Shown one piece after another: positions 9,549 through 62,698 of a stretch of 64,000 bases of DNA (positions are counted from its first letter, which is position 1; every line of letters begins with the position of its first letter). The notes under the pieces were generated by a model. That model was not told the DNA's origin. It was given only the letters and a program-made list of their open reading frames with translations, and searched no databases. The DNA is taken from contig JAUZSP010000007.1 in NCBI GenBank assembly GCA_030949385.1, positions 317,210 to 381,209 on the forward strand. Reading direction: 5' to 3'. Source of the DNA: Gammaproteobacteria bacterium (GTDB lineage Bacteria > Pseudomonadota > Gammaproteobacteria > JAUZRS01). Both the position numbers and the translations under genes were made by a program.

Positions 9549-10398
9549 TCAGCTCAATGCCGCCGATGTTTCGCTTGTGATTTGCCGCTGCGCGCGCGCA
9601 ATCGACGAGGGTGCAGTGACTTCAAGGTCAAACTCTGCACCGCGTTGGCCTGTTGCAGAAAGCGCTTTAAGCCACGTTTGACGACGCAGATCCACGTCAA
9701 CAAACTTGCCTATCCTCAGATCACGAGGCAGCAACAAATCGCCAAACCGCACCCGAATCAGACGGCTGACCGTCACCCCTTGTGATGTCCAGAGCCGCCG
9801 CACCTCTTGGTTACGTCCCTCTTTTAGGGTGACGTGATACCAGTGGTTGCTGCCTTGCCCACCGGCATCTTCAATGCTGTCAAATTTGGCCGGACCGTCT
9901 TCCAGCTCCACACCGTGTTTGAGATTTTTCAACATCTGATCGTCCACCTCACCCAAAATACGCACTGCGTATTCGCGCTCGATTTCACTCGACGGGTGCA
10001 TCAAACGATTGGCCAACTCACCGGAGTTGGTGAACAACAACACCCCAGAGGTGTTGATGTCCAAGCTGCCCGACCGCAATCCAGCGACCGTTTCTAAGCT
10101 GCGGCAAGCGATGAAAGACCGTTTTGCGCCCTTCAGGGTCGTTGCGGGTTGAAATCTCGCCATCGGGTTTGTGATACAGCAGCAAGCGAGGCCTCTCCTT
10201 TTCATCCAATTCGCAGACCTCATATTGGCGATCATCCACCTTGATGCGGTCTCCCACCTCGACCTTCGCTCCTAACACGGCAACCTGTTGGTTGACCTTA
10301 ATCACTCCTTGTTTAATCCACACTTCCATCGCTCGGCGAGAACCCAATCCCGCCTGCGCCAATACTTTTTGTAACCGTTCTGATGACACCAGTTTCAC
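9549..10398 (-). pseudogene. rluB: 23S rRNA pseudouridine synthase RluB-like, frameshifted
   Basis: Two frames together encode a complete RluB-like protein of about 282 residues. The first (10398 to about 10070) holds the S4 RNA-binding domain (ERLQKVLAQAGLGSRRAME) and part of the synthase domain; the second (about 10070 to 9549) continues at SLDINTSGVLLFTNSGELA. They join exactly at the catalytic aspartate motif if one base in the GGG/GG region (10061–10071) is removed. The break is in the active site, so as written the enzyme is dead; a one-base sequence error would restore it. The GTG at 10398 is a tentative start, without a strong ribosome-binding site. The family modifies U2605 of 23S rRNA. 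Confidence 0.85.
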
Positions 10399-10532
10399 TC
10401 CAGACAAACCCAACAAGAGTCAGGTTATGTCATTAAATAAAACACATTTTTATTGGATTTTAGCATCCTAATGTTCCGTAGAATGCTACTTCATATTAGA
10501 AATAAACAATTTACTTAAGCTGACGTTAATAT

Positions 10533-10643
10533 TCAAGCCCTTGGGATCAAGCCCTTGGGATCAAGCCCTTGGGATCAAGCCCTTGGGATCAAGCCCTTGG
10601 GATCAAGCCCTTGGGATCAAGCCCTTGGGATCAAGCCCTTGGA
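10533..10643. repeat. 14-bp tandem repeat, about 8 copies, upstream of the RpfG-like gene
   Basis: The unit TCAAGCCCTTGGGA is repeated seven times perfectly with an eighth copy missing one base. Each unit holds an imperfect palindrome CAAG-CC-CTTG. The array ends 28 bases before the start codon of the RpfG-like gene, where a promoter, operator or leader would be. Because 14 is not divisible by 3, three units make one 14-residue period, and the frame of the gene is open through the array. Confidence 0.95.
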
Positions 10644-10671
10644 GATACCGCTCAAGGAAGCGTTGTGTACC

Positions 10672-11775
10672 ATGACAAAAAGTTGCCCTCATCACAAGCC
10701 AGCCCCAATGCCATCCTGGGTCTTGATCATCGACGACCAACAAACTGGCAGTCGCATTCTGGAAAAAATCATCCTCGGCATCGACCCCAAATTGAGCATA
10801 AAAATTTTTTCCCTGCCCAAAGAGGCCCTAATCTGGCTGGAGGAACACAGCCCCGACCTGATCCTGAGCGACTTCAAAATGCCCAGCATGAACGGAGTCG
10901 AGCTTACCCGCCAAATTCGCAAAATACCACACTGCGCCGACGTGCCACTGATGATCGTTACCATCGTCGCCGACAAACAGACCCGTTATGATGCCCTAGA
11001 AGCCGGTGCCAGCGATTTTTTAAGCCGTCCCATCGACCAGCAAGAGTGCCAAGCACGCTGTCGTAATCTACTCAAAATGCGCCAACAACACAAAACGATT
11101 CAATATCACGCCCGCTCTCTGGAAGAGCAAATTCAGCAAGCCACCCAAGAAGTCGCTCGCCGTGAACAAGAAACCCTGCTGCGACTGGCCAAAGCCGGTG
11201 AATACCGTGACGAAGAGACCGGAAATCATATGATTCGCATGGCCAAATACGCTCGTTTTATCGCCGAAGCACTGAATCTAGACACCAAATGCTGCGAAGA
11301 GATTGAACGTACCGCCCCCATGCACGACATCGGCAAAATCGGCATCCCCGATCACATTCTGCTCAAACCGGGAAAACTGAATGCCAATGAGTGGAAAATC
11401 ATGAAAACTCACACCACCATCGGCTACAACATTCTGAAACAAAGCGACTCTCATTACATTCAACAAGGTGCCACCATCGCCCTTACCCACCATGAAAAAT
11501 TCGATGGCAGCGGCTATCCAGCAGGCATCAAGGGCAATAAAATTCCCTTGGTCTCTCGCATCATCGCCTTGGCCGATATGTACGATGCCCTCACTTCCAT
11601 TCGCCCTTACAAACCGGCATGGAGCTCTGAAAAAGCCGCCCAACACATCGAGTCGCTCCGTGGCAGTCACTTTGACCCCGACTGCGTTGATGCTTTTTTT
11701 CAGCAATTGGATAAAATCCGCGTTGTTGAAGAGCGGCTCCGCGATCAAGTGCCCACGGCCAAAGCTCATCCTTAA
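10672..11775 (+). CDS. RpfG-like response regulator: REC + HD-GYP c-di-GMP phosphodiesterase
   Basis: 367 residues from the ATG after the tandem repeat. The receiver domain (about 15–130) has the DD acid pocket at 21–22 and phospho-acceptor D67 in LSDFKMPSM. The HD-GYP domain (about 170–350) has HD at 218–219 in MHDIGKIGIPD and HHEKFDGSGYP at 273–283, the full motif of active c-di-GMP phosphodiesterases. It is followed after 6 bases by an RpfC-like hybrid kinase, its likely phospho-donor. Start choice: AAGGAAG lies 11 bases before this ATG; the upstream open frame is only repeat-encoded. Confidence 0.9.
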   Translation: MTKSCPHHKPAPMPSWVLIIDDQQTGSRILEKIILGIDPKLSIKIFSLPKEALIWLEEHSPDLILSDFKMPSMNGVELTRQIRKIPHCADVPLMIVTIVADKQTRYDALEAGASDFLSRPIDQQECQARCRNLLKMRQQHKTIQYHARSLEEQIQQATQEVARREQETLLRLAKAGEYRDEETGNHMIRMAKYARFIAEALNLDTKCCEEIERTAPMHDIGKIGIPDHILLKPGKLNANEWKIMKTHTTIGYNILKQSDSHYIQQGATIALTHHEKFDGSGYPAGIKGNKIPLVSRIIALADMYDALTSIRPYKPAWSSEKAAQHIESLRGSHFDPDCVDAFFQQLDKIRVVEERLRDQVPTAKAHP

Positions 11776-11781
11776 CCCTAC

Positions 11782-13854
11782 ATGAGCCATGAAAGAGAGC
11801 AAGCCAAATGGCGCATCGTCATTGGCAGTTTGGCTTTTACCCACTTTATTTTCGCCCCTCAAACCGAACTCTCCCACCTGCTGCCACCCCAACTGATCAG
11901 TGGTCTGTTTCTGCTCTACGCACTGCTGAACGGTTTGAGCCTGAAACTTCGCCCCTCGCCCTGCAATCTGCGCCGCAGGATAAATATGCTCATGGACCTC
12001 GGGGCGACCTCTCTGGTCATCGGCAGTGCCGGTGAAGCAGGCACACCGCTGATCGCCATCTACCTCTGGGTGATTATGGGCAACGGTTTTCGTTACGGCG
12101 TTGGCGAGTTGCGTCACGCTGCGGCCATTGGCCTGTTTGGTTTTGCCTTGGTGGTGCTGCTCAGCGACTTTTGGTCAAAACACCTCTTTTTTAGCAGTGG
12201 ATTTCTGATTGTTCTGTTTGCCATCCCCTACTACATGAGCAAATTGATCGGCGATCTGCACCAAGCCATTGAGAACGCCACCCGCGCCAACCGCGCCAAA
12301 TCTGAATTTTTATCCAATATCAGTCACGATCTGCGTACCCCACTGAACGGCATTACCGGCATGAACGACATGCTCGCCGAAACCGACCTCAACCAAGAGC
12401 AACGGGAGTGCTGCGAGGTCATTCATAGATCCGCTCAGAGCTTACTCGAACTGATCGAACGACTGCTGGTACGCGCACAAATTGAAGCCGGTAAACAGCA
12501 GATATCAGAACGCGCCTTTGATTTAGACGAACTGCTGGCCGACCTCAGCGGCCTGTTTAAAAAACGCACCGAAAGCAAAAACCTACGCTACCTCTGTCAA
12601 ATGAACCAAGATGTTCCCAAGCAATTACACGGTGACCCCCAGCTGCTCAAACAAATTCTAAACAACCTGCTCGGCAACGCGCTTAAATTTACCCAGCAGG
12701 GTCACATCGAAATCAACATCAGCTTACGACAACAGAAACCAAAACACGCCTTGATCCGGTTTGAAATCAACGACACGGGCATCGGCATCAGTAAAACCAA
12801 CCAACAAAAGATTTTTGAACGTTTTCAACAAGCCAACGATGAAATCAACTCCCGTTACGGCGGCAATGGCTTAGGAATGACCATTGTTAAAGAGAACATT
12901 GAAACCATGGGCGGCACGCTTGGACTCGAAAGCACAGAAAATGTCGGCAGCCATTTTTGGTTCGAACTCGATTTTGAGGTGATAACCGCAAAACCAAAAA
13001 AACGGCATCTGGTAAAAAGCGAACCAATGCCCTTTTCCATTGAAGCCTACCAACAGGCTAAAAACCCCCATTTAAAATTGGAGATTTTAGCCGCCGACGA
13101 CAATGAACTGAATCGAACCATCATCAAAAAAATACTGCAACGGGCCGGTCACCACGTCACACTGGTCAATGATGGCAGCGAAGCACTGGAAGCACTTGAA
13201 CAACAGGGTTTTGATCTGGCCATTTTAGACATCAATATGAATCATCTGGGCGGTCTTGATGTATTAAAAACCCATCGTTTCAAATACCCCAATGACAGCA
13301 CACCAATGTTGATGCTCTCCGCTGACGCAACAGAATTAACCGTCAACCGTTGTCTCACCGCAGGGGCAGCGTATTACTTAACCAAACCCATCGACAGCAA
13401 ACGTCTATTGGATGCCATCAACAGTTCAGCATTAAAAAGCCAACAAACCACTTCAATCTTTAAAATCCAAACCGAAGGCGCTCTTACAAAGATTGCTCTG
13501 CTCAACAGCCAAACTCTGGCTGAACTCTCCAGCATTGATCCGCACGGCAATTTTGTTGCTGATTTAATGCAAGGTTTTCAACACGATGGCGATAAATTAC
13601 TGGAAAAAGTACACCAATCTCTACACACACCGATTGATTTTATCAGCTTCAAAAACGGCGTACATGCTCTAAAAGGCAACGCGGCGGAGCTGGGTGCAGA
13701 CAAACTGTTTAAATTCTGTCAACAAGCAGAAAAAACCTCCCTACGCGAACTGCACCAGCAGAAAAATCAAGCACTTTATAACGAACTGGAACAACTCTAC
13801 CGCGAAACACTCGCCGCATTCAAACAGCACGCCGAAGAATCTTCCGCCTCTTAA
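11782..13854 (+). CDS. RpfC-like hybrid sensor histidine kinase
   Basis: 690 residues: membrane region of about five helices (10–160), HisKA with H182 in ISHDLRTPLNG, HATPase with DTGIGIS and GGNGLGMTIVKE, a receiver domain (about 430–555, LAILDINMNHLGG) and a C-terminal HPt with H628 in HALKGNAAELG. The sensor part contains YLWVIMGNGFRYG, which resembles the corresponding segment of Xanthomonas RpfC, the receptor for diffusible fatty-acid signals. Order of domains and pairing with RpfG support that match. No RpfF-type signal synthase is in the window. It lacks its own ribosome-binding site and is probably coupled to the RpfG-like gene. Confidence 0.88.
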   Translation: MSHEREQAKWRIVIGSLAFTHFIFAPQTELSHLLPPQLISGLFLLYALLNGLSLKLRPSPCNLRRRINMLMDLGATSLVIGSAGEAGTPLIAIYLWVIMGNGFRYGVGELRHAAAIGLFGFALVVLLSDFWSKHLFFSSGFLIVLFAIPYYMSKLIGDLHQAIENATRANRAKSEFLSNISHDLRTPLNGITGMNDMLAETDLNQEQRECCEVIHRSAQSLLELIERLLVRAQIEAGKQQISERAFDLDELLADLSGLFKKRTESKNLRYLCQMNQDVPKQLHGDPQLLKQILNNLLGNALKFTQQGHIEINISLRQQKPKHALIRFEINDTGIGISKTNQQKIFERFQQANDEINSRYGGNGLGMTIVKENIETMGGTLGLESTENVGSHFWFELDFEVITAKPKKRHLVKSEPMPFSIEAYQQAKNPHLKLEILAADDNELNRTIIKKILQRAGHHVTLVNDGSEALEALEQQGFDLAILDINMNHLGGLDVLKTHRFKYPNDSTPMLMLSADATELTVNRCLTAGAAYYLTKPIDSKRLLDAINSSALKSQQTTSIFKIQTEGALTKIALLNSQTLAELSSIDPHGNFVADLMQGFQHDGDKLLEKVHQSLHTPIDFISFKNGVHALKGNAAELGADKLFKFCQQAEKTSLRELHQQKNQALYNELEQLYRETLAAFKQHAEESSAS

Positions 13855-16032: not shown

Positions 16033-16404
16033 AAAAATGTCAGGAATTTTGTACAGAAGAACAGCACCAAAGACGCTTAAAGGCCGATCTAATGCCGGTT
16101 ATAAGTTTAATCATCACGTTTGGAGCCCCACACAGTTGCTAAAAAGCAACACCTTCCAATGCAGTTGTTTTTGCAACAAAATTACCCAACAACAGACAAA
16201 CCACAATACAAGCCATTTTCACGCGAAAATACATCAGTTTCACCCCTCCTGACAAAATTCTACAAATCATAACCACCAGACCCTTACTAGAGAACACGTT
16301 GAGCGCTAATTTGCTATCATCAACACCCGTTTAAGCTACCCTAGAATTCCTAAGTGATGCACAATCACAGAATACCGCACAGTTTTATTAAGAGGTGTTT
16401 CACA

Positions 16405-17079
16405 ATGCGCGTTTTATTGGTCGAGGATGATGTTCTGCTGGGTGACGGCATTCACACAGGCTTACGCAACGACGGTTACGCCGTTGATTGGGTCAAAGAC
16501 GGTGAAACCGCTCGACGAGCCCTGCAAGACAATGAATTTCATGCCGTGATTCTTGACCTGGGTCTGCCAAAACTGCCCGGCCTTGAGGTCTTAAAAGAGT
16601 TCCGTGAGCAGGGCAAGTCCACCCCCGTATTGATTCTCACCGCACAAGATGGCATTAACGACCGCATCGGTGGGCTGGATGCCGGTGCTGATGACTATCT
16701 GGTCAAACCCTTTGATCTGGAAGAACTCTGCGCTCGTTTGCGTGCGTTGATCCGCCGCGCTCATGGTCGTACCGACAGTGTCCTGCAACACGGCGATTTG
16801 GTGCTTGATCCCGCCGCTCACACCCTGCGACAGAATAAGCGAAATGTGACGCTCTCCAGACGTGAATTTGCCGTGTTGCAAAACCTGCTCGAAAATCGTG
16901 GCCGAGTGCTCTCCCGTGAACGGCTGGAACAGAGTCTTTATGGCTGGAGTGACGAAGTGGAGAGCAACGCCGTCGAAGTGTACATACATCACATCCGCAA
17001 AAAACTCGGCAGCAAACTGATTCGAACCATTCGCGGTGTGGGTTACATGATCGACAAACCCCAGAGTGATACGGAATAA
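16405..17079 (+). CDS. OmpR-family response regulator (QseB/PmrA-like)
   Basis: 224 residues from the ATG preceded by AGAGGTG; the frame is open further upstream but the receiver domain starts at MRVLLVEDD. Phospho-acceptor D51 (ILDLGLP), conserved K in LVKPFDL, and a C-terminal winged helix ending RTIRGVGYMIDKP. It is followed by its kinase gene after 2 bases. The QseB/PmrA subgroup often controls lipid A modification genes; an eptA homologue at 39.4 kb is a possible target, by inference. Confidence 0.92.
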   Translation: MRVLLVEDDVLLGDGIHTGLRNDGYAVDWVKDGETARRALQDNEFHAVILDLGLPKLPGLEVLKEFREQGKSTPVLILTAQDGINDRIGGLDAGADDYLVKPFDLEELCARLRALIRRAHGRTDSVLQHGDLVLDPAAHTLRQNKRNVTLSRREFAVLQNLLENRGRVLSRERLEQSLYGWSDEVESNAVEVYIHHIRKKLGSKLIRTIRGVGYMIDKPQSDTE

Positions 17080-37534: not shown

Positions 37535-38167
37535 TTACTTTTTAGTACGGCTCTTACGCTTAGCGGGCGTGGCAGTAATTTTTGCCATCTCCGCCTTTTC
37601 CCATTTTTTTGCAAAACGGCTGATCGCTGCTTCTTTCGCTTCACCCATCTTCAGCAAAGCTTTTTCACGTTTCAAAACCGCTCTCAACTCAGACTGTAGC
37701 TCTTTTACTTCAATTTTTAGCTCAGCAGCCTGTAGCTTGAATCTGTTAGGCCCCACAGTAACCGTTGTTGCTTTGGTAGTAGCCACTGCGGTAGTTGCGT
37801 TTTTCTTACCGGGGGGACGGCCACGTCTTTTCGGTTCAGCAGCCGGTGTCGCAACTGCGGTGGTTGCGTTTTTCTTACCGGGGGGACGACCGCGTCTTTT
37901 CGGTTCAGCAGCCGGTGTCGCAACTGCGGTGGTTGCGTTTTTCTTACCGGGGGGACGACCGCGTCTTTTCGGTTCAGCAGCCGGTGTCGCAACTGCGGTG
38001 GTTGCGTTTTTCTTACTGGGGGGACGACCGCGTCTTTTCGGTTCAGCAGCGGGTGTGGCCGCCTTAGTGGTTGCATTTTTCTTACCGGGGGGACGACCGC
38101 GTCTTTTTTTAACTACTGGGGTTGTTTCGTCAGCTGCGCTGACCTTATCTGTTTCAGCCATGTTCAT
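37535..38167 (-). CDS. AT-hook repeat, histone H1-like DNA-binding protein
   Basis: 210 residues. The first two thirds are five copies of a 23-residue repeat with an AT-hook core (KRRGRPPGKK) separated by NATTAVATPAAEP-type spacers, similar to AlgP/H1-like proteins. The C-terminal part is a predicted coiled coil (AELKIEVKELQSELRAVLKR) and a basic end. It should bind the minor groove of AT-rich DNA and act as a nucleoid protein; which genes it affects is unknown. Repeat proteins of this type vary in copy number between strains. Monocistronic with a terminator. Confidence 0.85.
   Translation of the reverse strand: MNMAETDKVSAADETTPVVKKRRGRPPGKKNATTKAATPAAEPKRRGRPPSKKNATTAVATPAAEPKRRGRPPGKKNATTAVATPAAEPKRRGRPPGKKNATTAVATPAAEPKRRGRPPGKKNATTAVATTKATTVTVGPNRFKLQAAELKIEVKELQSELRAVLKREKALLKMGEAKEAAISRFAKKWEKAEMAKITATPAKRKSRTKK
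37793..38110. repeat. 69-bp tandem repeats inside the AT-hook gene
   Basis: About 4.5 nearly identical 69-bp units, each encoding one AT-hook and a spacer. The central copies differ at only a few positions, so slipped-strand changes would alter the number of hooks without breaking the frame. Confidence 0.9.
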
Positions 38168-52826: not shown

Positions 52827-54472
52827 TCAGCGGCTATAAAGCACCACTCTGCGGTTCTTTTTTCGTCCTTCTGGAGTCAAGTTGTCCGCAATGGGGTTGC
52901 TCTCTCCGTAGCCTTTAGCCGTTAATTGTTGTTCACCTTACACCTAGCAGAAATCAAATAATCTCGTACCGTCTCAGCGCGCTGCTGAGAAAGTTGCAAA
53001 TTAAGTTCTGCGGCACCACTGCTGTCAGTGTAACCAGCCAATTCAACTTTTAACTGAGGATTCTGTTTTAATTGCTCTGCCACCCCACTCCAAGCCCGTT
53101 TGGCTGACTCGGATAACACCTGAAAGCCATAAGCCTCAAAAGACGTCTCTACCTCTTCCAATACGGGCAGTTGAAAACGCTGCTTGCAAACAGCGGGCAA
53201 TTCATCCACAGAAATCATTTTCAATTTCTGCACGATATGCGCTTCCACTCGCCGATTGCTGCGCCGCCCCTCTTCCGTACGGTTATCCGCTATGGGTTGT
53301 GACTCGCCATAGCCTTGGACACGCAACTGTTTTTCTTGCACCCCTTTCGAGGTCAAAAATGCTTCCACTGTTTTTGCACGTTTAAGAGAGAATTTTTGAT
53401 TAAAAGTAGCGGATCCTTTGCTGTCCGTGTGGCCACCAAGCTCCACGATCACATTAGGAAACTGTTTGATTTGTTTGGCAATGTTCGCCCAAATTTTTTC
53501 TCCTATTAAAGACAGTTTCTCAGAACCAAATTCAAACGGAACCTCACTGTTACTCAAATCAATTTCTATAATGGCACAACCGTATTCATCCACCGTCTTA
53601 CCCAACGCGGTATTCGGGCAGCAATCACGACTATCAGGCACACCGTCACCGTCTCTGTCCAAGACAACAACACAGCCTTTCGCATCCACTTTGCTATTGG
53701 CCGCACTGTTTTCACAGCGGTCTTGAGCGTCAGGAATACCGTCACCGTCGCTGTCCAAGACAACAACACAGCCTTTCACATCCACTTCACTATTGGCCGC
53801 ACTGTTTTCACAGCGGTCTTGAGCATCAGGAATACCGTCCAAGTCCGTATCAAGCACACCAGTCGATTTTTTATTAAACAATTGGTAACGCAAGCCAAGC
53901 GAGGCAAAATAAGCATCTTTGCCATAAGTGGTCAAATCCAATAAAGCACGCCAATCATCACTGAACCTCCAGCTCGTACCCAAACCAAAATGGCTGTTCA
54001 CTGCATTGTCTTTTGTGTATTTTATTTTCGGATTGCTAACACTGTTTTGTGTCGAATGCAGCCCTGCCTTTAAATATGGAGAAAAATTATTTCGTACAGA
54101 AAAAGGCGACCAAGAAAGACTTCCCCCCACATATTGATAATCAAGATCACCCAATACCTGAGAACCACTGGAAACCTCGGAGGCTCCTGCATTCAGATAA
54201 AAACCACTGAGCAACAGTTGCTCATGCCAACGATAATCCAAAGCAACACCATAACCACTGGATTGTTTTGTACTGATCCATAAACCACTGTTATTTTCTT
54301 GCGGTGAGAGAGCACTTACACCCACCGTCGCACTGACAGACCAGGGTGATAACTGAGGCGTCTCTGTCAACACATTGGACTCAATGGCCAACACCTGAGA
54401 AGGCAGCAAGACCAAGGCACTACAAACAGAGAGATAAAGAGAGTTCGGATGTAAGCATCGATATTTCGTCAT
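52827..54472 (-). pseudogene. Second double-OmpA/TSP3 barrel protein, frameshifted near the C-terminus
   Basis: Paralogue of the downstream gene: signal peptide (YLSVCSALVLLPSQVLA), barrel domain, three TSP3 motifs (two in 32-residue tandem copies, DSDGDGIPDAQDRCENS) and two OmpA domains. The frame as written stops at 52922 with RCKVNNN in the middle of the second OmpA domain; the missing end (LTAKGYGESNPIADNLTPEG …) continues in another frame to TGA at 52827. Restoring one base near 52935–52945 gives 548 residues. The start ATG at 54472 overlaps the stop of the TSP3 gene before it (ATGA). Whether this is decay or a sequence error is open. Confidence 0.8.
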
Positions 54473-56655
54473 AAAAATTTTCTGCACCGCGAAACATCCT
54501 GTTTCAACGAAAAGCTCCAAAAACGGGCCAACATCAATGTGACCATAAAAAATAAAAACAGACTGCTTTGACTGCCCGCACCAAAAACAGCCGTATCCAA
54601 AACACTCGATTTCAAACACGCCTCACTATCAACACCTGGCCGACAGGAATTTAAGTTATCAAGATCCGCTTGATCGCTCAAACCATCCCCATCAGCGTCG
54701 ATCAGATTCGATTCCAGCGCATCAATAACGCCATCCCCGTCCGTGTCCGTCGGGGTGAGGCCTGTACCCACCTCAAGATTATCTGGAATACCATCACTGT
54801 CGCTGTCGCCGTTGTTCGGGTTCGTTCCCAATTGAAGTTCAACCCCATCACTGAGGCCATCACCATCACTGTCACACGCGGCGACCAAATTGGAGGGCAA
54901 ACAGGCATTATTGTTGTCCGCATCCAGTTGATCCACCACACCGTCACCATCTGTGTCGATAACATTGGACTCCAAGGCATCAATGATTCCATCCCCATCC
55001 GTATCAATCGCGCTGGCCGGATTCGCACCCACCTCAACCCCGTCATCAATACCATCGCCGTCGCTATCAGCAAGGTTAGGGTCGGTTCCCGCTTGAGCCT
55101 CTTGCGTATTAGTCAGACCATCACCATCGGCATCACAAATGCCCACCGTGGCATCAGGGTTACAGGCGTCATTGTTGGCCGGATCGAGCTGATCCACCAC
55201 CCCGTCACCATCGCTGTCCAACAGGTTGGAGTCCAACGCATCAATGATTCCATCACCATCGCCGTCCAGAGCCGCCACAGTGGGGTAATTGGCACCCACC
55301 TCAACACCGTCATCAATACCATCGCCGTCGCTGTCCGCGTTGTTCGAATTAGTGCCTAAGGCCACTTCTTGTACGTCGCTCAGACCGTCACCGTCCGCAT
55401 CGCTTAAGGCCAAACAAACGATACTGAGTGCATTAGGCAAACAGGGGTCGGCATTGGCGTTGTCTTGCTGATTGCTGAACAGATCACCGTCGTCATCGAG
55501 AAGATCCGACTCCAGCGCATCAATAATGCCATCGTTATCCGTGTCGATGGCCGCTAAAGCGGGGTAAGTCAAACCCACTTCAACACCGTCTTGCACCCCA
55601 TCGCCATCACTGTCCGCGTTGTGGGGATCGGTGCCTAACACCACTTCATCGCTGTCTTTTAGACCGTCCGCATCGCTGTCCAGTGGGCGAAAAAATAAGG
55701 GCTTCAACGACTGCTGAAAAGGCACACCAAGAGGAACAATCGCACCGGTACCCACATAAAAGAGCTGAGCATAAACGGTATAATTGCCCGCCAAAGCGGC
55801 ATTGAAAGGGAAATTAATCAAATCAATAGGCCGATTAATAATCGTATTGGCCACTGCGGTGAATGGAATTCGGATCACCATTGGCGAATTACCTTTCGGA
55901 TCAATGACCGAATACTCCAGCAAGTAATTACCCGCCTGCACAATGTTCAAGTTTGTCTGCACTTTCAGGTCGATATTGCCCCCGACCGTATTGGCACTGA
56001 CCACATTCAAAGCCGTAATCTGCCCCTGTGCGCCTGCACCGCCATCAATCACCAGCTGACCGGCGGTGACGATCACCGCCCAACTGCTGCCTTTCACCAC
56101 AGAAGGCTGAATCACCACCGTGTTATTACCCACCACCACACTGCCCAATGGGATCTTAAACACGCTGGTGCTGTAACTGGCGTTAAAACCGGTCAAATAA
56201 CTGCCCTGATTAATCGGCACATTGGCGCGATCAACAAAGCCAGTCGGCACTCCTGACCCCAGTAAAACACCGTTGAAAGTCACTGTATCCAACTCAGGAA
56301 AAGTGGGATTAGCAGGGTCATCTTCGTCCACATCAAAGGCGGTGAGGGTTAAATAGGCCGTCTGCTGTGGCAAAGCGCCGGTGACGTTGATATTGAACTC
56401 AATCGGCCCTGCTTGCTGAATACCAAAGGGTACCGCCAAGGCGTGCACCACCGGCTGTCCTCCATTGCCTTGGGCGTTACTGGTAAAAACCAGATCACCA
56501 TCAGGAATAGGGGTCACCCCGTCTTGAGCTAAGTTGTCCGCAAAGGTAATGTAGGTGTTGCCCGCATATGCCGACGGCGCACAGACAACAGCAAGCAGCA
56601 GCACGCCTCGTTTCAACCGATCACAACCCAAACTCAAAAATAATTTCCATATCAT
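54469..56655 (-). CDS. Secreted TSP3-repeat protein, paralogue C (728 aa)
   Basis: 728 residues from the ATG 11 bases after AAGGA. Signal peptide ending [14 protein letters not shown]; an N-terminal domain of about 300 residues shared by all three paralogues; then four copies of an 87-residue unit, each with four DxDxDG calcium motifs (for example [17 protein letters not shown] and [14 protein letters not shown]) and a Cys pair ([13 protein letters not shown]); then the tail [11 protein letters not shown], a hydrophobic helix and a basic end. Expected to bind calcium and be exported; the function is unknown. Coupled to the OmpA-like gene downstream. Confidence 0.8.
54625..55683. repeat. About 260-bp coding repeats, 4 copies (paralogue C)
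   Basis: Tandem units of 87 codons built of DxDxDG motifs. Units 2–4 are close to each other and to units of the two other paralogues, so exchange between genes is likely. Confidence 0.8.
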
Positions 56656-56782
56656 GATAAAAAACATCCTTAAAAAAAGAATTAAATTAAGTTGCACCAG
56701 TGTAAGTAAATAGACTGATCTATTTCTAAAGAGTCTTACTCATGAAGAATCAAAACCAGCCACTCAAAGACAAGAATAGGAT

Positions 56783-59680
56783 CTAACGATCCTCTCTCAA
56801 GCGCCAAATGGACAAACCACTCAAAAGCAACAAAAACAGCGTACTTTGACTGCCCGCGCCAAACACAGCGGTATCCAAACTGCTGGCTTGACGACACGCA
56901 TTATTATCGAGGCTCGGCAGGCAGGGATCCAAATTGGCCGAATCCGCTTGATCATTCAGGCCATCACCGTCACTGTCCAACAACGACGACTCCAAAGCAC
57001 TGATGCGTTGATCTCCATCGACATTACTCGGCGAACCAATCAAACCCACTTCAATAAAATCACTCATTCCGTCGCCATCGCTGTCAGCGTTATTCGGATC
57101 GGTACCCAATTGAAGTTCAACCCCGTCACTGAGGCCATCGCCATCGCTGTCACAAGCCGCAACCAAATTACTCGGCAAACAGGCGTTGTTATTATTTGGG
57201 TCATTTTGATCGCTGATGCCATCGCCATCTCTGTCGATCAGGTCGGACTCCGCCACATCGGGTATGCCATCGCCGTCCGTGTCTCTTGGACTCAAGCCGG
57301 TACCGATTTCAAGATTATCGGCAATGCCATCACCGTCGGTGTCGTTGTTGGTCGGGTTGCTGCCCAAACTGATCTCTAGACCATCGCTGATGCCATCACC
57401 ATCACTGTCACAGGCGGCCACCAAATTAGAAGGTAAGCAGGGGTTATTACTGTCGGCATCCAGAGCATTCACCACTCCATCGCCGTCACTGTCGCTTAGA
57501 TTGGACTCCAGCGCATCAATAATGCCGTCACCGTCGCTGTCTAATGGAGTCGCTTGGTTAGCACCCACCTCAACACCGTCGTTAATACCGTCGCCGTCGC
57601 TGTCGGCCAGATTAGGGTTGGTGCCTATGCTGATCTCAAAACCGTCGCTGAGGCCATCGCCATCGCTGTCACAGGCGGAGACTAAATTGGAGGGCAGACA
57701 GGCGTTGTTATTATTTTTATCCAGTTGATCCACCACACCGTCGTTGTCGCTGTCCGTAATATTCGACTCCAGCGCATCAATAATGCCATCATTATCTGTA
57801 TCAATCGGGCTGGCAGGATTGGCACCCACTTCCACACCGTCATTAATGCCATCGCCGTCACTGTCGGCCAGATTCGGGTTTGTCCCCGCCAAAGCTTCTT
57901 GCGCGTTTGTCAGACCATCGCCATCGACATCACAAGCAGCCACGGTATTGTCAGGATTGCATACGTCGTTATTGGCAGGGTCTAATTGATCATTGATGCC
58001 ATCGCCATCTGCATCGTTCAAGCTGGACTCCAAAGCGTCGATAAGGCCATCGCCGTCGCTGTCCGTTGGATTAGCGGCATCCACACCCACTTCAACGCCA
58101 TCATTCACTCCATCACCATCGCTGTCGGCGATGTTTACATCTGTTCCCGCCTGCGCCTCTTGGGCGTTTGTCAGGCCATCAGCATCGGCATCACAGACAC
58201 CAATGGTATTGTCAGGATTACAAGCGTCGTTATTGGCGGGGTCTAATTGATCGTTAACACCATCGCCATCGCTGTCCAAAAGATTGGAATCCAGCGCATC
58301 AATAACTCCATCGCCGTCGCCGTCCAGAGCCGCCACAGTGGGGTAATTGGCACCCACTTCCGCACCGTCATCAATGCCATCAGCGTCACTGTCGGCCACA
58401 TTAGGGTTCGTTCCCAAAGCCGCTTCTTGCGCGTTGCTGAGACCATCGCCGTCGGTATCGGTCAAGGCCAAACAGGCAGTACTGAGTGCGTTGGGAATAC
58501 AAGAATCTAGATTATCCGAATCCTCATGATTCATAAATCCATCAGCGTCCGTATCAATAATATTCGACTCCAGCGCATCAATGCCTCCCGTGCCATCGGT
58601 ATCAAGAGCCGCTACGGTAGGGTAGGTCAACCCCACTTCAACGCCGTCTTGAATACCATCGCCATCACTGTCGGCGTTGTGTGGATCGGTGCCTAAAACC
58701 ACTTCATCCGTGTCTTTCAGACCGTCTGCATCGCTGTCCAGTGGACGAAATAATAATGGGTTTAACGACTGCTGAAAGGGCACTCCAACCGGTACTGTTA
58801 CCGTACCACTCAGATAAAAAAGTTGAGCATAAATCGTATAGTTGCCTGTTAAGGCCGCGTTATAAGGAAAGGGCAGCGTATCAACCAGACGGGTAAAAAC
58901 AGAGTTGGCAGGCAGAGTAAAAGGAATATTAACCACCATAGGTGAATTGCCATTGGGATCAATGACCGAATACTCCAGCTCGTAATTGCCTGCTTGTATA
59001 ATATTAAACGCAGTCTGTACCTGCAGGTTCAGGTTAGCCCCTGCTGGATTCGCACTAATAACATCAAAAGCTGTGATCTGCCCCTGCGCACCTGCGCCGC
59101 CATCAATCACCAAATGACCACCATAAACGATCACAGCCCAAGTCGAATTATTTACAACGGAAGGATTGATGACCACCGTGTTATTACCCGCCACCACACT
59201 GGCCAATGGCAATTTAAAAACACTGGTACTGTTAACACCATTAATGCCCGTCAGATAACTGCCCTGTTTAATTGGCAGCCCCGCAGCAGTAAAAAAGGCG
59301 GTATTAATCGCGCCACCCAAAGGCACACCATTAAACTCGACTGTATCCAACTCTGGAAATGCCGGAAAGGCAGGATTATCTTCATCCACATCAAAAGCAG
59401 TAAGGGTTAAATAAACCGACTGCTGAGGTAGCGCACCCGTGACATTAATATTAAATTCAACAGGTCCTTTCTGCTGAGTTGCCGTAGGTACATTTAGTGG
59501 GTTTACCACCGCAACACCCAGATCATTATCAGCTACGGGTAAACCACCTTGGCCTAAATTATCAACAAAGGTAAGGTAAGTCGATCCTGCATAAACGGGC
59601 TGAATAAAAAAAGTGAATATAAAAATAGCCACAATTTTTAGATAAAAATCAGCTCGAATCCATATTTTTTCTATATTCAC
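56783..59680 (-). CDS. Secreted TSP3-repeat protein, paralogue B (965 aa)
   Basis: 965 residues from a GTG with AAGGA 8 bases upstream; this start aligns the signal peptide with the other two paralogues (ATG at 59689 or 59722 are alternatives). Signal peptide ending FFIQPVYA|GSTYLTF, N-terminal domain, seven 87-residue TSP3 units with 28 or so DxDxDG motifs and paired cysteines, and the tail [20 protein letters not shown] followed by SIWRLREDR. The C-terminus has the tripartite form of a sorting signal. 91 bases after paralogue A in the same direction. Confidence 0.8.
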   Translation of the reverse strand: MNIEKIWIRADFYLKIVAIFIFTFFIQPVYAGSTYLTFVDNLGQGGLPVADNDLGVAVVNPLNVPTATQQKGPVEFNINVTGALPQQSVYLTLTAFDVDEDNPAFPAFPELDTVEFNGVPLGGAINTAFFTAAGLPIKQGSYLTGINGVNSTSVFKLPLASVVAGNNTVVINPSVVNNSTWAVIVYGGHLVIDGGAGAQGQITAFDVISANPAGANLNLQVQTAFNIIQAGNYELEYSVIDPNGNSPMVVNIPFTLPANSVFTRLVDTLPFPYNAALTGNYTIYAQLFYLSGTVTVPVGVPFQQSLNPLLFRPLDSDADGLKDTDEVVLGTDPHNADSDGDGIQDGVEVGLTYPTVAALDTDGTGGIDALESNIIDTDADGFMNHEDSDNLDSCIPNALSTACLALTDTDGDGLSNAQEAALGTNPNVADSDADGIDDGAEVGANYPTVAALDGDGDGVIDALDSNLLDSDGDGVNDQLDPANNDACNPDNTIGVCDADADGLTNAQEAQAGTDVNIADSDGDGVNDGVEVGVDAANPTDSDGDGLIDALESSLNDADGDGINDQLDPANNDVCNPDNTVAACDVDGDGLTNAQEALAGTNPNLADSDGDGINDGVEVGANPASPIDTDNDGIIDALESNITDSDNDGVVDQLDKNNNNACLPSNLVSACDSDGDGLSDGFEISIGTNPNLADSDGDGINDGVEVGANQATPLDSDGDGIIDALESNLSDSDGDGVVNALDADSNNPCLPSNLVAACDSDGDGISDGLEISLGSNPTNNDTDGDGIADNLEIGTGLSPRDTDGDGIPDVAESDLIDRDGDGISDQNDPNNNNACLPSNLVAACDSDGDGLSDGVELQLGTDPNNADSDGDGMSDFIEVGLIGSPSNVDGDQRISALESSLLDSDGDGLNDQADSANLDPCLPSLDNNACRQASSLDTAVFGAGSQSTLFLLLLSGLSIWRLREDR
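56905..58742. repeat. About 260-bp coding repeats, 7 copies (paralogue B)
   Basis: Seven tandem units of the TSP3 type. Internal units are more alike than the first and last, as expected for array expansion by unequal crossover. Confidence 0.8.
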
Positions 59681-59771
59681 GACATCCATCCTTGGCACAG
59701 TAATCAGAAGTTTAATCGACATCAAGAATCATGCGGCTCAACATCAGAACCACACCCTGCCCAATAAGGGG

Positions 59772-62698
59772 TTATTTAGTCCACCTAGAACGCCCCATCA
59801 TTAAGCCACTCAACAACAATAAAAATAGGGTGTTTTGACTGCCCGCGCCAAACACAGCGGTATCCAAACTGCTGGCTCGCAGACACGCATTGTTCTCAAG
59901 ACTGGGCCGACAAGGATCCAAGTTAGCCAGATCCGCTTGATCACTCAAGCCATCACCGTCACTGTCCAATAAAGAGGACTCCAAGGCACTGATGCGCTGA
60001 TCACCATCAATATTGCCAGGCGAACCGATCAGACCCACTTCAATAAAATCACTCATTCCGTCGCCATCGCTGTCAGCGTTATTCGGATCGGTGCCTAATT
60101 GACGTTCAATCCCATCGCTGAGGCCATCGCCATCGCTGTCACAGGCCGCTGCGCTGTCGCTTGGCAGGCAAGCGTTGTTATTATTTGGGTCATTTTGATC
60201 ACTGACGCCATCACCGTCGCTGTCGATCAGGTCGGATTCCGCCACATCGGCAATACCATCGCCGTCCGTATCGGTCGGGCGTAAGACCCGTGCCGATTTC
60301 AAGATTATCGGCAATGCCATCACCGTCGGTGTCGTTGTTATTCGGGTTGCTGCCCAAGCTGATCTCCAAACCATCGCTGATGCCATCACCATCACTGTCA
60401 CAAGCAGCCACTAAATTAGAAGGCAGACAGACGTTGTTGTTATTGCTATCCAGCTGATCCACCACGCCGTCACCATCGGCATCGTTTGTATTAGACTCTA
60501 AGGCATCAATAACGCCGTCACCGTCGCTGTCCAGTGGTGTGGCGTGATTGGCTCCCACTTCAACACCGTCGTTAATACCGTCGCCGTCGCTGTCGGCCAC
60601 GTTAGGGTTGCTGCCTATGCTGATCTCAAAACCGTCGCTGAGGCCATCGCCATCGCTGTCACAGGCGGAGACTAAATTGGAGGGCAGACAGGCGTTGTTA
60701 TTATTCGCATCCAGTTGATCCACCACACCGTCGTTGTCGGTGTCCGTAATGTTCGACTCCAGCGCGTCAATAATGCCATCATTATCTGTATCAATCGGGC
60801 TGGCAGGATTGGCACCCACTTCCACACCGTCGTTAATGCCATCGCCGTCACTGTCGGCCAAATTAGGATCCGTTCCCGCTTGCGCCTCTTGCGTATTAGT
60901 CAAGCCATCGCCATCGGCATCACAGGCATGCCTACGCGTACTGTCAGGGTTGCACACGTCATTGTTGGCCGGATCGAGTTGATCCACCACACCGTCACCA
61001 TCTGTGTCGATAACATTGGACTCCAAGGCATCAATGATTCCATCCTTGTCGGTGTCTGTTGGCTTGGCCACATCAGCCCCCACCTCGGCACCATCAAGAA
61101 CGCCATCGCCGTCGCTGTCGGCAATGTTTGCATCTGTTCCCGCTTGCGCCTCTTGGGCGTTACTCAAACCATCACCATCGGCATCACAAACACCAATGGT
61201 GCTGTCGGGATTACAGGCATCGTTATTGGCGGGGTCTAATTGATCGTTAACACCATCGCCATCCGTATCCGTACTATTGGACTCCAACGCATCAATGATT
61301 CCATCGCCATCGGTATCAATCGGGCTGGCGAGATTGGCACCCACTTCCACCCCGTCATCGATGCCATCGCCGTCACTGTCGGCCACATTAGGGTCGGTTC
61401 CCAAGGTTGCTTCTTGCGCGTTGCTGAGACCATCGCCATCGGCATCGGTCAAGGCCAAACACACATTGCTAAGCGGGTTTGGCAAACAAGGATCGGCGTT
61501 GGCGCTGTCTTGTTGGTTACTGAACAGATCACCGTCGTCATCGAGAATGTCCGACTCCAGCGCATCAATAAGCTCCGTCGTTATCGCTGTCGATGGCCGC
61601 CAAGGCTGGGTAGGTCAAGCCTACTTCAACGCCATCTTGCACCCCATCGCCATCGCTGTCGGCGTTGTGTGGATCGGTGCCTAAAACCACCTCATCTGTG
61701 TCTTTCAGGCCATCGGCATCGCTGTCCAGAGGACGAAAGGCCAACAAACTCAAGGACTGCTGAAAAGGCACCCCCACCGGCACAATCGTACCGGCTCCCA
61801 CATAGAAGAGCTGAGCATAGACGGTGTAGTTTCCTGCCAAAGCGGCATTAAAAGGAAAGCTAACCAGATCAATAGGGCGGTTGATAATCGTATTGGCTGC
61901 TGCCACAAAAGGAAGATTGATCACCATTGGCGAATTGCCATTGGGATCAATCACCGAATATTCCAACAAATAATTACCCGCCTGCACAATGTTTAGGCTG
62001 GTCTGAACTTGAAGATCAACGTTAGGTACTGCCGTATTGGCACTAACCACATTCAAAGCCGTAAGCTGCCCCTGCGCACCAGCACCGCCATCAATCACCA
62101 ATTGCCCAGCGGTAACGATCACCGCCCAAGTAGAGTTTTTTACCATAGAAGGGTGAATTACCACGGTGTTATTGCCCGCCACCACGCTGGCCAACGGGAT
62201 CTGAAACACACTGGTGCTGTAACTGGCGTTAAAACCGGTCAGATAGCTGCCTTGATTGATGGGCAAATTAGCTCTGTCCACAAACCCCGTTGGCACTGCT
62301 GTTCCTAGCGGCACTCCGTTAAAGGTCACCGTATCCAATTCAGGAAAGGCAGGGAAAGCAGGGTCATCTTCGTCCACATCAAAGGCGGTGAGGGTTAAAT
62401 AGGCCGTCCGCTGTGGCAAAGCCCCAGTAACGTTGATATTGAATTCAATCGGCCCTGCTTGCTGAATGCCAAAGGGTACCGCCAAGGCGTTCACCACCGG
62501 TTGTCCTCCATTGCCTTGGGCGTTACTGGTAAAAACCAGATCACCATCAGGAATAGGAGTCACCCCGTCTTGAGCTAAGTTGTCCGCAAAGGTAATGTAG
62601 GTATTGCCCGCATATGCCGACGGCATTAGAAACAAAGAAGACAGCATTCCAATTCTTAAAAAACCGTACCCCAAATTCAGCCAACGTTTCCATTCCAT
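59772..62698 (-). pseudogene. Secreted TSP3-repeat protein, paralogue A, two frameshifts
   Basis: The same architecture as paralogues B and C, but in three frames: 62698–about 61575 (signal peptide ending [16 protein letters not shown]-terminal domain, first unit), about 61570–60280 (units 2–6), and 60279–59772 (unit 7 and tail [20 protein letters not shown] … MMGRSRWTK). The breaks are one-base gains: GGAGCTTATTG against the expected GGCATTATTG at 61570–61575, and CCC for CC at 60277–60279. Corrected length is about 974 residues. The start is the ATG 11 bases after AAGGG. First gene of the cluster. Confidence 0.78.
59905..61725. repeat. About 260-bp coding repeats, 7 copies (paralogue A)
   Basis: Seven units in total across the three frames; the unit at about 60.95 kb has two extra residues ([11 protein letters not shown]) where the other units have a fixed length. 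Confidence 0.75.

Follow-up and report, generated by a model that had tools for sequence, protein, structure and literature searches.

Bacterial intergenic minisatellites, or variable-number tandem repeats (VNTRs), are head-to-tail arrays of ~10–100 bp units of high identity whose copy number varies between related genomes. The repeat arrays of the Haemophilus influenzae hmw genes reportedly act through the promoter. At hmw1A, repeat arrays drive phase variation (PMC8262952), and in marine Beggiatoaceae a role in translation has been proposed for intergenic TAACTGA direct repeats, heptamers found at 169 positions in a single genome, in most cases no more than several nucleotides from a start (PMC4679880). 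In the RpfC/RpfG system of Xanthomonas, a REC-HD-GYP regulator adjoins a HisKA-HATPase-REC-Hpt hybrid kinase (PMC3528676). In the literature, we found no tandem repeats linked to c-di-GMP genes.

Within a gammaproteobacterial window of 64,000 nucleotides (the whole stretch of DNA that was analysed), we found a tandem array directly upstream of an rpfG-like c-di-GMP phosphodiesterase gene, and we compared it with the corresponding locus of a congener. The features of the locus are:

9549–10398, minus strand: rluB, 23S rRNA pseudouridine synthase gene, divergent from rpfG
10399–10532, no strand: divergent promoter region between rluB and the array, 134 bp, 77% identical to the congener (23% diverged)
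10453–10484, plus strand: weak promoter-like pair, TTGGAT (10453) and TAGAAT (10479), spacer 20
10533–10644, no strand: 14-bp tandem array, seven exact copies of TCAAGCCCTTGGGA and one partial copy, TCAAGCCCTTGGAG
10645–10671, plus strand: 27-nt spacer between array and ATG, with AAGGA (10654–10658) as the probable Shine-Dalgarno site
10672–11775, plus strand: REC-HD-GYP response regulator, RpfG-like c-di-GMP phosphodiesterase (Pfam HD_5, Response_reg)
11782–13854, plus strand: hybrid sensor kinase, RpfC-like partner (Pfam HisKA, HATPase_c, Response_reg, Hpt)

TRF places the array at 10533–10642 with a period of 14, 7.9 copies, 100% matches and a score of 220, which bears out the preliminary description of about eight near-perfect head-to-tail copies and falls within the unit size and identity of a VNTR (14 bp × 7.9). 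The first base of the array lies 135 bp from the rluB start codon (GTG at 10398, minus strand), and 29 bp separate its end from the ATG of the rpfG-like gene (10672), essentially the positions first given (135 and 28 bases). The window holds 14 matches to TCAAGCCCTTGGGA with up to three mismatches as compared to 6 ± 2.3 in shuffles; the surplus is the eight array copies, and the array is far above chance expectation. In the rpfG-like protein, the HD and GYP motifs are intact (HDIGKIG and HHEKFDGSGYP are read in the sequence), and a REC-HD-GYP protein with its catalytic motifs next to an Hpt hybrid kinase is the arrangement of RpfC/RpfG genes. Crotonase-family genes are present on contigs C6 and C10 and absent from the window's contig, and none was identified as rpfF. 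On the other side of the array, a 1-base length difference from the congener breaks rluB (9549–10416, minus strand) into two overlapping frames; the congener's rluB frame is open over the part covered (locus L009). The split is either a sequencing error or a pseudogene.

To see how widely the array occurs, we scanned 84,980 species for an exact 28-mer and found a sole match, in the public record of the congener (JAUZRS010000116.1). This is a Gammaproteobacteria MAG, and the name of its isolate suggests an origin at the Arctic Mid-Ocean Ridge. A two-unit pattern with up to three mismatches, searched in 37 genomes, matched only the source locus and the corresponding congener locus. In the 2.87-Mb source genome, there is no second array of TCAAGCCCTTGGGA and no single exact copy outside the array; the preliminary description had proposed looking for the unit elsewhere in the genome, and that check leaves the exact unit confined to the rpfG locus. 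A genome-wide regulatory repeat would place its unit at many sites, and here the exact unit is at one locus. With two mismatches allowed, TCAAGCCCTTGGGA has 37 matches in the genome as compared to 2 for a reversed-pattern control; this surplus is probably composition, since the non-array matches in the window equal the dinucleotide-shuffle expectation. A strong rpfG match is present in 55 of 369 genomes of the class, and in most of the rpfG orthologue loci examined an RpfC-like kinase adjoins it. We found no comparable upstream array in ~28 such loci from other families (a few with incomplete upstream regions), including one (L045) where rluB is likewise divergent from rpfG with no array between them; the array is thus not part of the RpfG system. 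A search of Rfam and a search of viral contigs gave no match, and plasmids gave only weak HD-domain coding matches.

In the congener, the array at the corresponding position has 9 units as compared to 8 in the source genome. Unit 1 is TAAAGCCCTTGGGA, unit 7 is ACAAGCCCTTGGGA (with ACAAG) and the last unit is TCAAGCCCTTGGAG, as in the source genome. The earlier proposal of a length-variable array before the c-di-GMP phosphodiesterase gene therefore gains support, and the extra unit in the congener speaks for a minisatellite of variable length, although the comparison comprises two genomes, one per species, and is a small basis for rates or selection.

The two genomes are 94% identical over 8 kb, and divergence is uneven: 1–2% in the array and rpfG, 4% in rpfC, 6% in rluB and 8% in an ApbE-like gene. 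The array and rpfG (10533–11775) form a low-divergence block between the species, with fewer differences in rpfG than in rpfC (Fisher p = 2e-5) and in array plus rpfG than in rluB (Fisher p = 3e-8), and the dS of rpfG is 0.038 as compared to 0.12, 0.19, 0.18 and 0.57 in four neighbours. The adjoining region at 10399–10532 is unusually diverged, far more so than the array, rpfG or rluB, while the 27-nt spacer before the ATG is identical in the congener. The simplest reading of the block is recent sharing of array and rpfG by recombination, or unusual constraint; alternatively, selection acting jointly on rpfG and its leader, and not recent exchange, could account for it. Because array substitutions (2/126) match the rate of rpfG (17/1104; Fisher p = 1.0), there is no extra constraint on the array, and its sameness is no separate evidence of function. 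An OmpR-type regulator gene in the window (16354–17079) has a dS of 0.57 against the congener, strikingly above its neighbours.

When we surveyed 0.8 Mb of the source genome for arrays, we found that other many-unit arrays lie mostly inside reading frames. One clear intergenic example, 17 bp × 10.6 (G000 C3:44814-44998; L087 4814-4998), lies just downstream of a 438-aa gene resembling rimO and directly beside a GCGAAGGCGGGAATCC-type inverted repeat (GTCATTCCCGCGAAGGCGGGAATCC). This array has ~11 units in the source genome and 3 in the congener, indicating that in this genus intergenic minisatellites do form and vary in length. We also observed repeats of other kinds. In the window, the minus strand at 37535–38167 encodes a protein of 210 aa, without a Pfam match, in which a 23-aa unit rich in lysine and arginine (KRRGRPPGKKNATTAVATPAAEP, with an AT-hook-like RGRPP) recurs about five times, and the minus strand at 53633–61446 encodes long TSP3-repeat proteins with internal DNA repeats of 261 bp and 96 bp. 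On G000 C3 (L088 11468-12857), 28-bp repeats (TTTCTAAGCTGCCTATCCGGCAGTGAAC) with a period of ~60 bp resemble a type I-F CRISPR array.

To place the array relative to transcription, we looked for promoter elements. Under strict settings, a promoter scan gave nothing in the window; the weakly predicted promoter-like pair lies ~50 bp upstream of the array, and in the congener the pair TTGGCT-18-TAGAAT is also upstream of the array. The upstream pair, if real, places the array within the transcribed 5' leader of rpfG, so that the array is probably leader and not a promoter spacer. A length-variable promoter spacer had been among the roles first suggested, and this role is unlikely given that the sole promoter-like elements, weak as they are, are upstream.

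We favor, with a probability of about 0.6, the reading that the array is a slippage-generated, genus-specific intergenic minisatellite that is near-neutral or mildly tunes rpfG. Head-to-tail duplication of a short leader sequence of the rpfG-like gene would have started the array, which would then have grown, shrunk and been homogenised via replication slippage or unequal recombination, for which no dedicated machinery would be needed. The units are exact, with variants only at the ends and in one interior unit (congener unit 7), and from this we infer slippage and homogenisation. The array would probably be transcribed within the rpfG 5' leader and may have at most a mild quantitative effect on rpfG expression via leader length or structure. 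The RNA and palindrome features set out below are within or near chance, which also argues for a minisatellite; no dedicated switch or operator is indicated, and the tests of an RNA switch, CsrA loops, a palindromic operator and an N-terminal extension gave weak or negative results. Besides possible selection on rpfG with its leader, two observations count against this reading: the array has a similar length and near-invariant units in both species while the adjoining 134-bp region is 23% diverged, and it lies 29 bp before the start of a signalling gene, where an effect on expression is expected.

The best-surviving alternative, itself unlikely, is that the CAAG/CTTG inverted repeats serve as clustered operator half-sites through which a DNA-binding regulator controls rpfG or rluB, with copy number setting occupancy. 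CAAG and CTTG do alternate regularly, the array lies in a divergent intergenic region and the unit is nearly invariant. The unit had been called palindromic; however, TCAAGCCCTTGGGA is no palindrome. It holds CAAG-CC-CTTG and CTTG-GGAT-CAAG, two short interrupted 4-bp inverted repeats, and shuffling the unit at constant composition gives repeats as good in 13% of cases. Together with the lack of a second array or single exact unit elsewhere in the genome, mismatch matches at about the level of composition, and the absence of the array from the orthologues examined, this leaves the earlier suggestion of regulator binding sites a small probability, with neither the palindrome nor a wider distribution of the unit behind it.

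Similarly unlikely is action through the leader RNA, in which anti-Shine-Dalgarno CCUUGGG segments and GGA loops that CsrA could bind tune rpfG translation. The CCUUGGG in each unit can form 7 pairs with CUCAAGG at the Shine-Dalgarno site, and 1.2% of shuffled units reach this complementarity when only the Shine-Dalgarno context is counted; however, 29% match the whole 27-nt spacer equally well. The predicted cost of opening the Shine-Dalgarno site rises from 0.1 kcal/mol without units to 1.2–2.0 kcal/mol with units, but the predicted opening of the whole initiation region barely shifts (11.2–11.5 kcal/mol) and the folding energy of the leader does not improve on that of shuffled sequences (z = +0.5 and –0.4). 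Both genomes, source and congener, have one CsrA gene each; a GGA in a CUUG/CAAG loop is reached by 16% of shuffles and the hairpin with AAGGA in a CGCU/AGCG loop by 15%, both at chance, and a CsrA array was rejected. We also rejected an odd/even copy-number switch. Idealised leaders alternate in Shine-Dalgarno opening (~1.4 vs 2.0 kcal/mol), but the real 8- and 9-copy leaders give 1.43 and 0.55–0.73 kcal/mol, the opposite order, and the fold varies with the fragment end chosen.

It is quite improbable that the array is a contingency locus, where frequent slippage within a population would move the phosphodiesterase from one expression state to another. Slippage is usually less frequent in 14-bp units than in units of 1–8 bp, no on/off geometry is apparent for an array that probably lies outside the reading frame and downstream of the promoter, and copy number is known from two genomes, one per species. 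What speaks for such a locus is that copy number differs by one between the species and that repeat arrays switch the H. influenzae hmw genes (PMC8262952). Very improbable, too, is a model in which copy number tunes the leader RNA, repeated CCUUGGG segments competing for the phosphodiesterase ribosome-binding site and so heritably adjusting the c-di-GMP level.

The array is very unlikely to be translated, from an in-array TTG, as a variable N-terminal extension of the phosphodiesterase; such an extension had been proposed because the frame stays open. An in-frame TTG at 10555 in the window and at 843 in the congener locus (L009) each gives 406 aa. However, the open frame across the array merely follows from a unit that lacks a stop in every frame; in the window this frame is closed a short way ahead of the array, and in the congener by a TAA inside the first unit. 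The array contains no ATG or GTG start (TTG only), the AAGGA site is downstream of the array, and matches to orthologues start no earlier than residue 8 of the protein read from the ATG.

If the minisatellite did tune expression, slippage would provide a heritable c-di-GMP dial in an uncultured marine lineage, possibly affecting attachment. The array is also a possible strain-typing marker. Its near-perfect conservation across the two genomes should be read with caution, as it reflects the low-divergence block and not demonstrated selection on the repeat.

Among described systems, the array most closely resembles bacterial intergenic VNTRs, with which it shares exact head-to-tail units, a probably non-coding position and a copy number that varies between relatives; unlike them, its unit sequence, TCAAGCCCTTGGGA, was found nowhere beyond the congener in the exact 28-mer scan of 84,980 species. 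Like the TAACTGA repeats of Beggiatoaceae, it consists of direct repeats shortly upstream of a start codon in a gammaproteobacterial lineage; however, its unit has 14 bp, is unrelated in sequence and occupies one site only. As at hmw1A of H. influenzae, a length-variable tandem array lies upstream of a gene, but the hmw heptamers are in the promoter and their effect has been measured, whereas the array here is probably downstream of the promoter. The gene pair itself is of the Xanthomonas RpfC/RpfG type, although here the order is rpfG-rpfC, divergent from rluB and with no gene identified as rpfF, and in the other genomes examined the array is not part of that system.
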